From the NCBI GenBank assembly GCA_003584625.1, contig AP017647.1, positions 1,350,603 through 1,414,602 on the forward strand: 64,000 bases of DNA, given 5' to 3'. Numbering within the stretch: position 1 is the stretch's first letter; the number at the start of each line of letters is the position of its first letter. The translations under genes were made by a program, and so were the position numbers. The notes under the pieces were generated by a model. It saw only the letters and a program-made list of their open reading frames with translations. It searched no databases and had not been told where the DNA came from. This document shows positions 49,452 through 64,000 of this stretch, one piece after another. This DNA comes from Methanothermobacter sp. MT-2. GTDB taxonomy: Archaea > Methanobacteriota > Methanobacteria > Methanobacteriales > DSM-23052.

Positions 49452-50438
49452 ATGGGTGTTAAACTCAAGGATATAATATACTCCTCAAAGATAAAAATCG
49501 AGGATCTGAATGGGCGCATCCTAGCCATCGACGCCCCAAACACCATATACCAATTCCTCTCCAGTATAAGGCAAAAGGATGGAACACCCCTAATGGACAA
49601 AAAGGGAAGAATAACATCCCACCTCAGCGGCATACTATACAGAACCGCGGCCATAATAGAAAAGGGCATAAAAGTGGTCTATGTCTTCGATGGAAAAAGT
49701 CCAGAATTTAAACGTGAAACAGTCACCAAACGAAAATCTATAAGAATCGAAGCCGAAAAGAAATGGAAAGAAGCTCTCAGGGAAGGGGAGGTCGAAGAGG
49801 CTAGAAAATATGCTATAAGATCCGCCAGACTATCCTCTGATATAATATCAAGTTCAAAGGAGCTTCTAGACTTAATGGGCGTGCCATTCGTTAACGCCCC
49901 AGAAGAAGGCGAAGCCCAAGCATCTTACCTCGTCCAGAAGGGTGATGCATGGGCAGTCGCCTCCCAAGACTATGACTGCCTCCTATTCGGAGCCCCAAGG
50001 ATAGTCAGAAACCTCGCCATAACCCTAAAAGCACACGAACTAGAACTCCTAGAATTAGATGTTATCCTAAAAAGGTTGGAGATTACGAGAGAACAACTAG
50101 TTGACATGGCATTACTCGTAGGCACAGACTTCAACAGGGGCATAAAAGGGATAGGCCCAAAAAAAGCCTTCAAACTTATAAAGGAAAAGGGCAACATCCA
50201 TAATGTATTAAAAGATTTAGGTGAAGAACTAGACGAAGACCCAGATACCCTAAGGAAAATCTTCCTCAAACCCCAGGTTACAGATGATTACAAGCTTTCA
50301 TGGAGAAAACCCGACAAGGATGGTATAATAGAATTCCTCTGCCATGAACATGGGTTTTCAAAGGAAAGAGTGGAAACTGCCATAAAAAAGATGCAAGTTG
50401 AAACTTCTATCCAGAAAAGTTTGACAGACTGGTTCTGA
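49452..50438 (+). CDS. fen: Flap endonuclease FEN1
   Basis: A 328-residue nuclease: MGVKLKDII start, IDAPNTIYQFLSSIRQ, VYVFDGKSPEFKRET, PEEGEAQASYL, DYDCLLFGAPR, GTDFNRGIKGIGPKKAFKLIK, and the PCNA-binding tail QKSLTDWF. It cuts 5' flaps in Okazaki fragment maturation and repair. Length is normal. Its end overlaps the end of the convergent helicase gene by 32 bases. Confidence 0.97.
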   Translation: MGVKLKDIIYSSKIKIEDLNGRILAIDAPNTIYQFLSSIRQKDGTPLMDKKGRITSHLSGILYRTAAIIEKGIKVVYVFDGKSPEFKRETVTKRKSIRIEAEKKWKEALREGEVEEARKYAIRSARLSSDIISSSKELLDLMGVPFVNAPEEGEAQASYLVQKGDAWAVASQDYDCLLFGAPRIVRNLAITLKAHELELLELDVILKRLEITREQLVDMALLVGTDFNRGIKGIGPKKAFKLIKEKGNIHNVLKDLGEELDEDPDTLRKIFLKPQVTDDYKLSWRKPDKDGIIEFLCHEHGFSKERVETAIKKMQVETSIQKSLTDWF

Positions 50439-52380
50439 TAGACTCCTCAACCAGCCTATAATAGAAACCCTTTCTATGAGAATAATCAATAAGCCTACTA
50501 TAGGATGGGTGCGCCTTTAAAGTCTCGGAATCTCCTATTATTATAAGCTTTCTCCTAGCCCTTGTAAGTGAAACATTAAGGCGCCTTAGATCGCTGAGAA
50601 ACCCTATCCTACCCTGTTTATTGCTCCTTACCATTGATATTATTATAATCTCCTTTTCACGTCCCTGATAGCCATCAACAGTATTAACCTCAACCCTAGC
50701 ATGGGACGATATAAGATCTACTTGATCATCATAAGGCGTTATAATACCTATATCAGAAGGGTTAACACCCCTCTTAATAAATAAATTGGATATTATAATA
50801 GCAAGATCAGCCTCTAATTGATTCTGGAGTGAAGGCGACCCCCTAACTCTTCTCTCGAACTTTACTCCAATATCGGCGGTGTCTATGAATATCAGAGGCT
50901 TTTCAGGGTCTAAAAGTTCTCTTCCAAGTTTCCATTCACAATCTGTATCATTCACAAGGTCTTTTATTGTGAAATTTTCCAGGCCAAGCGCTGCTTTTAT
51001 TTTACCATCATAAAATTCCATGTTTGGGAATTCCATCAACTCTGGGTTCATACGATACTGGATATCTAACATGTATGCCTTATATGGGTACAATCTTATC
51101 AATTCCTCAAATAGAGTTTTCTCTAATTCTAGGGCATCCTGATTCAAGATTGTTGGGGGTAACTGTTTATGGTCACCTGCCAGGACAAACCTCCCCCCAC
51201 GGGAAAGTGGGATGAGAATACTTGGTATTGTGGCCTGTGAAGCCTCATCAACTATCACAAAATCGAATCTGATATCATCGAGGTGTTCTAGGGCTGCTGA
51301 TGAATTAGTTGAAAGTATTACAGGAGTTTTAGCCAGGATCTTTGCTACTATGCTATTTTCTATATCATCTATCTTCTCGTATAATTCATCTATTTTCTTG
51401 TTGGTTTTTATCCATTTTGCCATGGATATCATGACATTCGGTGATATTCCCCTAATACCTTTCCTTTTCATGGCATTTGCCACTATTTGCCTGTCACTCA
51501 AACCTCTTCTGAAGGATGGTGTGGGTTTATGGTATTTTTCCCTTTCATCTATCAATTCTTGGATGTTTTCTTCTAGTTCAGGTATTTTTTTATAATCTGG
51601 ATGATTTTCCACTTTATATGCTAGGGTCTTTTCAAGGTTTCTTTTTGAAACTCTTTGCGGGTGCCCAAGCCTTACACATTCTACTCTTCCATCTAATCCT
51701 TCTAGGATATTATCTACTGCAGCATTACTTTCTGCAGTTACAAGCAATTTCCTGCCTTTTTTAACTTCTTGTATTATAAGTTCAAGTAGGGTTCTTGTTT
51801 TACCAGTGCCGAATGGACCGTGAATCAAGAAAAAGTCTTCAGATGCCATGGCTCTTGATATTGCTTCTCTTTGGGAATGGTTAAGGTCTTTGTCTTCCGG
51901 TTCAAATTCCACTTTTTCTGTTTTGTTTGTGGGGCTTCTTTTTCCTAGGAGGAATTCTAATACCTGGTGGGTGTTTTTGTTGAGTTTTTTCAGGTTATCT
52001 TCCATCCGCTGGAATGTGATATCATTGGCATATAAGTCGATTCTAACATTTTTTAAAGCCCATCTTGGCACCTTTTCCATGGCAACAGTTATAAATCTGC
52101 TGCCCTTCTGGGCTACAGTTGCTGTAAGATCGCTTCTAAGGGGGTTGCCCCTACTTATAAGTACAAGGTCTCCCACGCTTATCTCGGTTTCGATAGGTTT
52201 TTTCCTACCATACTTAACAAGGATGAATCCAAGTTCCCTGCCAAGAATTTTCCCATTAAGGTTATTAATAGCCCTACCTATCTTCTCACGCTTCAAGGCG
52301 GATAAATGTCTTATCTCGGCCATCATAGCCTCTATCTCCGCCTTCCTCTCCATCTCAACAAGTTCTAATAGTCTTTCCAC
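50407..52380 (-). CDS. SF1 helicase of the Dna2/UPF1/IGHMBP2 type
   Basis: A 657-residue protein: N-terminal RNA/DNA-binding part, Walker A GPFGTGKTRTLLELI (about 193), VDEASQATIPSIL, GDHKQLPPTIL, LDIQYRMNPELMEFPN, VNTVDGYQGREKEIIIISMVRS and LNVSLTRARRKLIIIGD. The SF1B Upf1-like order is complete. A role with FEN1 in flap processing is suggested by the abutting gene but not proven. It is third in the ahcY-DUF2119-helicase order. Confidence 0.92.
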   Translation of the reverse strand: MERLLELVEMERKAEIEAMMAEIRHLSALKREKIGRAINNLNGKILGRELGFILVKYGRKKPIETEISVGDLVLISRGNPLRSDLTATVAQKGSRFITVAMEKVPRWALKNVRIDLYANDITFQRMEDNLKKLNKNTHQVLEFLLGKRSPTNKTEKVEFEPEDKDLNHSQREAISRAMASEDFFLIHGPFGTGKTRTLLELIIQEVKKGRKLLVTAESNAAVDNILEGLDGRVECVRLGHPQRVSKRNLEKTLAYKVENHPDYKKIPELEENIQELIDEREKYHKPTPSFRRGLSDRQIVANAMKRKGIRGISPNVMISMAKWIKTNKKIDELYEKIDDIENSIVAKILAKTPVILSTNSSAALEHLDDIRFDFVIVDEASQATIPSILIPLSRGGRFVLAGDHKQLPPTILNQDALELEKTLFEELIRLYPYKAYMLDIQYRMNPELMEFPNMEFYDGKIKAALGLENFTIKDLVNDTDCEWKLGRELLDPEKPLIFIDTADIGVKFERRVRGSPSLQNQLEADLAIIISNLFIKRGVNPSDIGIITPYDDQVDLISSHARVEVNTVDGYQGREKEIIIISMVRSNKQGRIGFLSDLRRLNVSLTRARRKLIIIGDSETLKAHPSYSRLIDYSHRKGFYYRLVEESIRTSLSNFSG

Positions 52381-61956: not shown

Positions 61957-63591
61957 ATGAAGAGAATACTATATCTGGGTTGTTTATTGGCATTTTCTTT
62001 AGTGTTTATCGGCAGCGTTTCAGCAACCGAATTATCATATAATGAAATTTCAGACACTTCACAGATAATAGCAGACCAGGCTTCGAAAACAGGCCAAATA
62101 CCATCCCAAATCACAGTAAACAACAAAAACATCACCCTAGACGACTACCTATACGCCACAAGCACCACCACAATAAACCTAAACACCAACAAAAAAACAA
62201 ACATAAGCACCAACAACTACAAACCACCAACAAACCCCCCGAGTAATACAGCAACTGGAAAACTCACAAAAACAACATACCTACAGGTAGCACAAAACAT
62301 CAAAAAATACATGGAAACCAATGGAAGATCGCCAAATTATGCCACCACAACAATAGGAAAAATAAACTATCCAAGCCTGATCTACACCTACGCCAAAATA
62401 ATAAACTTCTACAACACCAACGGAAGACTACCAAACTATGTAACAATAAACAATGTAGATCTTCAAACAATTCCTACACCAGTCACAGGCAACTTAACAG
62501 ATCCCTCCAATGAGACCCAAATTAAATATTATCTTGACAAGTCCTACTACCTCAAAAACTATGATAAACTTTTGTCAGCAGCTATTGATGAAAATAAAAG
62601 GATAAGGGATCGTTTATATTCGAAATATAAGAGTACTGGTGACCAAAGGTACTATACAGCTTATATAGATGCAGGATATGCGGTTGAAGTTTTCAAAAAT
62701 ATTAAAAAGAACAGGCCCCTCACATCCGAAGAAAAGATAATTGAAATCAAAACAATCCAAGCAAATAATGCCTATTATTCAAGGAGCTTGTCACCATCAC
62801 AGAGTTACACAGGAATCCTATTTAGCAACAGATCATCACGTTACACCAATTTTATCGTGCCAGAATTTGAAAGCACTCTACCATTCGTCTATTACAAAAA
62901 CAAAGGATGGAACCTCTATCCTGTCACAACATCAAATCTCGCAGCAACCTATACTGATGAAAGATTCTTCGAAATCCTCGATGAACTGAAACTAATGATC
63001 ACATTCCAAACATACAATAGTATGCCTTATGCCCTTTTCAAAATATACTTTGAATATGAAGGATCAGGGATTGGTTGGATCAATTCCTTCTCCCAGGCTA
63101 ACCTTGCAAGTTTATATGCTAAAGCCTATAAGCTTAGTGGTAACACAGAATACCTTGACATATCAAATGCTCTTATAAACAGTTTCATAGCCCCTAACAA
63201 TCTCGTGAAAGAGACAAAATATGGCAGTTTCTACCTTCAATATCCCTTTATGAGAGAACATTACATCCTAAACGTTCACCTTATCGCCACCGTAGCATTC
63301 TATAATACATATGAGGCCACTGGAAACACTCTTGCATTAACACTCTTTGAAAAAGGTGTTAAAACATTTGAAAAAATGGCTAAATTATTTGATAGTGGCA
63401 GTTGGACCTATTATGCAGTGAGCGGTCCAGATTATAAACCGGCATAGCTTGCAGAAACCGACTACCATAGACTCCATGTAAATTTCGCGAATAAACTTTA
63501 TCTTATCACAGGAAACTATTACTTTAAGGAACTAGCTTTAAAATGGAACAATTACCTCATCCAAAAAGGGCTTAAAGGAGAAAACATTTAA
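61957..63591 (+). CDS. Secreted pseudomurein-binding protein with C5-epimerase-like domain, interrupted by TAG
   Basis: A signal peptide ([19 protein letters not shown], cut near VSA) precedes two pseudomurein-binding repeats (about 25-80 and 105-170, the latter with GRLPNYVTI). A large alpha-helical domain from about 190 resembles the D-glucuronyl C5-epimerase C-terminal barrel ([21 protein letters not shown]). A TAG at codon 497 (63,445-63,447) is followed in the same frame by 47 more codons ([20 protein letters not shown], then [13 protein letters not shown]) that belong to the same domain, ending in TAA at 63,589. Without the TAG the product is 544 residues. Readthrough, a Pyl-like codon or a simple nonsense mutation are possible. 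It is wall-located; the substrate could be a uronic-acid-containing surface glycan. Confidence 0.75.
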
Positions 63592-64000
63592 CTTTTTGTC
63601 GCTCCTAGGCCCCCCCCAAATGGGGGGTAATCCTTTATATACTTTCAAGGAAAAAACAGCATAAGTACGAATGTAGGGCTAGGACACTCCCCCGCCACGA
63701 ACACCTGTTTTTTCAAGAACTGATACTCTCAAATACGGGTTATCCCCCCTAAGGCCCCCTTTCGATAGGTCTCTTTGGCTGAAATTTCATACTTACTAAA
63801 ACCATTAGGAGGGATACCAATTTTCTATCGAACTTGGAACCGCAAGCAGTGTATGGATACCATAAAATATTATATTGTAAATACGGATCTCGGACACTCC
63901 AGATACCCTTTCTTCTGTATGGATACTATAATATTATATTGTAAATAGTGGGATAAAAGGACATTATCTTAACATTTTCCAATCCAAAAAAAATGTTATG
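63592..64000. other. Right-end intergenic stretch, regulatory-looking
   Basis: No gene. Contains a strong GC hairpin (ccccccaaatgggggg, about 63,613-63,628) that may end the preceding transcript, a TATA-like ttatatac just after it, and the direct repeat described separately. It probably leads to another gene beyond the window. Confidence 0.4.
63850..63947 (+). repeat. Two-copy direct repeat with 32-base spacer
   Basis: tgtatggatac ... atattatattgtaaata occurs at 63,850-63,883 and 63,916-63,947; the copies differ only by a short cata/tata stretch. Repeat and spacer are of similar length, as in a minimal CRISPR unit, but the repeat is AT-rich, not palindromic and has only two copies, so duplicated operator or promoter sites are more likely. 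Confidence 0.5.

Follow-up and report, generated by a model that had tools for sequence, protein, structure and literature searches.

We asked whether a single in-frame TAG within the C5-epimerase-like domain of a predicted wall-binding protein is decoded or ends translation. The gene lies in the window, by which we mean the whole 64,000-nucleotide stretch of Methanothermobacter sp. MT-2 DNA that was analysed. Read directly, the frame runs from the ATG at 61957 through 496 sense codons to the TAG at 63445-63447, continues for 47 sense codons (63448-63588) and closes with a TAA (63589-63591). Between the ATG and the TAA there is neither a frameshift nor a second stop apart from the TAG, as the sequence-only reading of this DNA had stated. 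When translated up to the TAG, the protein matches the Pfam C5-epim_C profile with 105.2 bits (profile positions 6-144 of 188), and with the TAG read through the score is 137.2 bits (positions 6-187 of 188), both above the Pfam cut-off of 23.3 bits. Because the 47 codons after the TAG raise the score, they constitute the authentic C-terminus of the C5-epimerase domain and not a chance continuation, which bears out the earlier suggestion that the open frame beyond the TAG is the natural domain end. The features are collected in Table 1.

Table 1. Features of the epimerase-like gene, in positions of the window
Feature	Position	Strand	Basis or remark
ORF of 496 codons, from ATG start to premature TAG	61957..63447	+	ORF and frame reading, Pfam; signal peptide by inspection
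Contents of the 496-codon ORF: signal peptide, pseudomurein-binding repeats, most of the C5-epimerase-like domain	61957..63447	+	
Best-scoring pseudomurein-binding repeat (PF09373), residues 99-130	62251..62346	+	Pfam; two stretches in all
C5-epim_C domain (PF06662), residues 360-531 with TAG read through; TAG inside the domain	63034..63549	+	Pfam
In-frame TAG	63445..63447	+	TGG (Trp) in 8/8 sister-family homologues, TTA (Leu) in UBA587
Same frame after the TAG: 47 more codons, then TAA; C-terminal part of the domain that is lost	63448..63591	+	
Codon of Tyr503, downstream of the TAG	63463..63465	+	Counterpart, by alignment, of Tyr578, the catalytic base in human GLCE

Which codon preceded the TAG? 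We searched 60 related genomes for the epimerase domain and found homologues only in the genome of the window itself and in eight genomes of the sister family (G004, G006, G008, G010, G012, G014, G016 and G018). In all eight sister-family homologues the codon is TGG and the local residues read R-P-(A/T)-W, and a more distant homologue (49% identity) from the Methanobacteriaceae MAG UBA587 carries TTA. Neither a stop nor a Gln codon (CAG) was found at this position in any of the eight or in UBA587. Since TGG is present in 8/8 sister-family homologues, the likely change is TGG to TAG and not CAG to TAG; TGG, one transition away from TAG, is the most likely ancestral codon. The transition from CAG proposed in the sequence-only reading was thus rejected, since Gln occupies this position in none of the homologues, while the alignment of homologues at this codon, which the same reading had recommended, gave Trp or Leu throughout.

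Next, we considered the age of the lesion. Identity to the intact homologues is 50-55% after the TAG and 61-63% before it. Fisher tests gave no significant difference (p 0.14-0.33), so that no significant loss of similarity was detected downstream. This indicates that the mutation is recent, or that the base call is wrong, or that readthrough has kept the end of the protein, and of these three readings preservation of the C-terminus by readthrough appears the least likely.

Could this genome decode TAG at all? Pyrrolysine is not known to be used in Methanobacteriales. No PylS was found in the genome: the best matches to the PylS model were HisRS, SepRS and PheRS, at ≤45 bits compared to a cut-off of 178 bits. 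The tRNA model yielded 37 genes above its cut-off, and an intron-aware ARAGORN run on retrieved stretches assigned anticodons to 38 tRNA genes, including an intron-bearing tRNA-Trp(CCA). The CUA anticodon was absent from these 38 genes, a census without tRNA-Ala(UGC), which neither the tRNA model nor a dedicated pattern recovered from this genome (G000) and which may be masked, unusual or intron-bearing. As the census is short of at least this tRNA, a further hidden tRNA is conceivable. A scan with a CUA anticodon-loop pattern gave 110 matches and its reversed control 117; those tRNA genes that appear among the matches listed were hit via the acceptor arm, the D arm or an intron, never via the anticodon. 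Pyrrolysine decoding was rejected for lack of PylS and of any CUA anticodon in the tRNA genes recovered. We take Methanothermobacter tenebrarum to represent the same lineage as the genome of the window. Its published genome has 38 tRNAs (PMC9302168).

The use of TAG as a terminator was then counted in the window, with a heuristic set of 53 long non-overlapping ORFs that perhaps includes a few spurious ones. These ORFs end in TAA (25), TGA (15) or TAG (13, the epimerase-like ORF included), i.e. TAG terminates 12 of the 52 other ORFs, about a quarter, whereas it makes up ≤11% of stops in Pyl-using Methanomassiliicoccales (PMC3941956). TAG is therefore a normal and frequent terminator in the window. 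In addition, a 657-residue gene (50407-52380, minus strand) has kept TAG as its terminator in four congeners (86-87% identity), and one PMBR paralogue terminates in TAG and two others in TAA. Both the search for pylS or an amber suppressor tRNA and the count of terminal TAG codons, which the sequence-only reading had put forward as checks for recoding, thus turned out against decoding. At the 657-residue gene, the frame beyond the conserved TAG (50281-50438) also looked conserved in the four congeners; readthrough there was rejected because the frame overlaps a convergent plus-strand ORF (49452-50438), which, judging from the coordinates, is probably the cause.

Is the gene needed by its host? 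None of the three other genomes of the genus has it, and in these the flanking genes (radical SAM, MraY-like, MurG-like and FAD-dependent, named by inspection) are conserved in order with 77-86% identity. The same place is taken in one congener by an oppositely oriented gene of 560 residues, and in another only about 0.4 kb separates the flanking genes. Two of the eight sister-family homologues are broken by independent lesions: the one in G010 by frameshifts, and that in G004 by a frameshift together with a Trp-to-TGA change distinct from the lesion in the window. As the gene is absent or independently broken in relatives, its loss has been repeated and tolerated, and this patchy distribution indicates that the gene is dispensable and accessory. 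The genome of the window contains no intact PF06662 paralogue, the sole other match being partial and marginal. Searches of viral contigs for a related locus and of a phage collection for similar DNA found nothing.

The signal peptide and the PMBR part (61957-62490; L002-L008) form a cassette that is repeated in the genome. Over a length of 453 bases, at least three other genes match its DNA with about 92% identity, and further copies, some of them in tandem, are 78-88% identical. The epimerase-domain homologues of the sister family have no PMBR repeats, which makes the gene look like a chimera of a PMBR cassette and an epimerase domain. Four other PMBR genes with apparent internal stops (at about 873, 452, 711 and 1350 kb) were inspected and set aside, the matches having run past a natural terminal stop. 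Downstream of the gene, the region 63600-63960 contains an inverted repeat of a C-run and a G-run (about 63610-63628), and TGTATGGATACCATAAAATATTAT occurs there in two imperfect copies, at 63850 and 63916.

We also asked what a protein that ends at the TAG would lack. The C-terminal domain is significantly similar to that of GLCE-type D-glucuronyl C5-epimerases (PF06662; PDB 6HZZ, 6I01 and 4PW2; phmmer E 3.5e-12), although the archaeal protein, unlike GLCE, carries PMBR at its N-terminus. In alignments read by hand, GLCE Tyr500, Asn510, Tyr560 and Tyr578 all have counterparts in the read-through sequence; in that with human GLCE (PDB 6HZZ), Tyr486 corresponds to Tyr560 and Tyr503 to Tyr578, the position at which PDB 6I01 has Phe. 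Tyr578 is the catalytic (general) base of human GLCE (PMC13308652, PMC12834895). Its counterpart, Tyr503, lies six codons past the TAG and is absent from the terminated product, for which GLCE-type activity is thus not expected; judged from these alignments, the product is most likely enzymatically dead. The proton donor of GLCE, the catalytic Glu499, is not matched in the window protein: by the same hand alignment the position is occupied by Gln428, by Gln in UBA587 and by His in the sister family, so that intact relatives depart from GLCE as well. Gln or His at this position (in the window and in homologues L043-L048 and L065) may mark an archaeal clade with a different acid or a different reaction.

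In our view the TAG is very probably a recent nonsense mutation in an accessory gene, which gives an inactive, truncated protein. The order of events that we infer is that a single-base change, most likely TGG to TAG, arose in a gene that is not essential and encodes an exported, pseudomurein-binding, C5-epimerase-like protein; translation would then end after residue 496, and the product, if any, would keep the wall-binding repeats and lose 48 residues, Tyr503 among them, from the end of the helical catalytic domain. As in a nonsense pseudogene, a premature in-frame stop occupies a sense codon of the homologues, homologous sequence continues beyond it, and relatives have lost the gene or carry copies with lesions of their own. 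Of the two possibilities left by the sequence-only reading, a very recent nonsense mutation is the one favored by TGG in 8/8 sister-family homologues, by the absence of PylS and of CUA among the tRNAs found, by the ordinary use of TAG as a terminator and by the losses and independent lesions in relatives. What counts against it is that there is one lesion alone and that the 47 codons are undecayed, as continued translation would also give. The main rival is a sequencing or assembly error, with a sense codon, probably TGG, in an intact gene. Only one base separates the TAG from the codon of the 8/8 homologues, and an intact remaining frame with a downstream part that is not measurably decayed fits an error as well, but several relatives lack the gene or carry a broken copy, which makes its loss here plausible. 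The genome is a single contig with an estimated completeness of 99.96%, which has little bearing on a single base. We regard an error as decidedly unlikely and infer a biological origin of the lesion. It is also possible, as a variant of the nonsense-mutation explanation that does not exclude it, that the 496-residue protein is kept as a non-catalytic wall- or sugar-binding protein: its N-terminal PMBR part is intact and has about 92% DNA identity to several other PMBR genes of the genome. However, the cut falls inside a conserved helical domain and is probably destabilising, and the undecayed downstream part implies that there was little time for selection on the shortened form, which makes such a function unlikely.

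Decoding of the amber codon to give the full-length enzyme, be it as pyrrolysine, through a suppressor tRNA or through programmed or leaky readthrough, is very improbable. The frame and the domain do run on past the TAG, and similarity to homologues is about the same on either side of it; against this stand the missing PylS, the lack of a CUA anticodon among 38 tRNAs, the ordinary use of TAG as a stop, homologues that never have TAG at the site, and the loss or breakage of the gene in relatives. Independent lesions in relatives together with no suppressor tRNA were what the sequence-only reading itself had named as speaking against decoding, and both were observed, the latter for the 38 tRNA genes with assigned anticodons. 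Equally improbable is low-level readthrough without a dedicated tRNA, which would supply a minor full-length wall-bound enzyme beside the truncated wall-binding form. The Pyl-decoded genes mtmB, mtbB and mttB of Methanosarcinaceae and Methanomassiliicoccales likewise have a single in-frame TAG within a conserved domain (PMC3941956), whereas here there is no PylS, no CUA tRNA was found, the protein family is another one, Trp stands at the site in homologues and many genes end in TAG. Nonsense pseudogenes of a single species have been mistaken for recoding elsewhere: the CobN pyrrolysine candidate, likewise an amber form confined to one species, was judged a probable pseudogene (PMC1914089). CobN had an in-frame TAA besides, while the epimerase-like gene has one lesion.

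Amber decoding, if true, would be new for Methanobacteriales, but no means for it was found in the genome. With the nonsense mutation as the preferred explanation, the case illustrates the decay of a dispensable surface-enzyme gene in Methanobacteriales, and it means that a nonsense mutation with a single lesion can mimic recoding when one genome alone is read.
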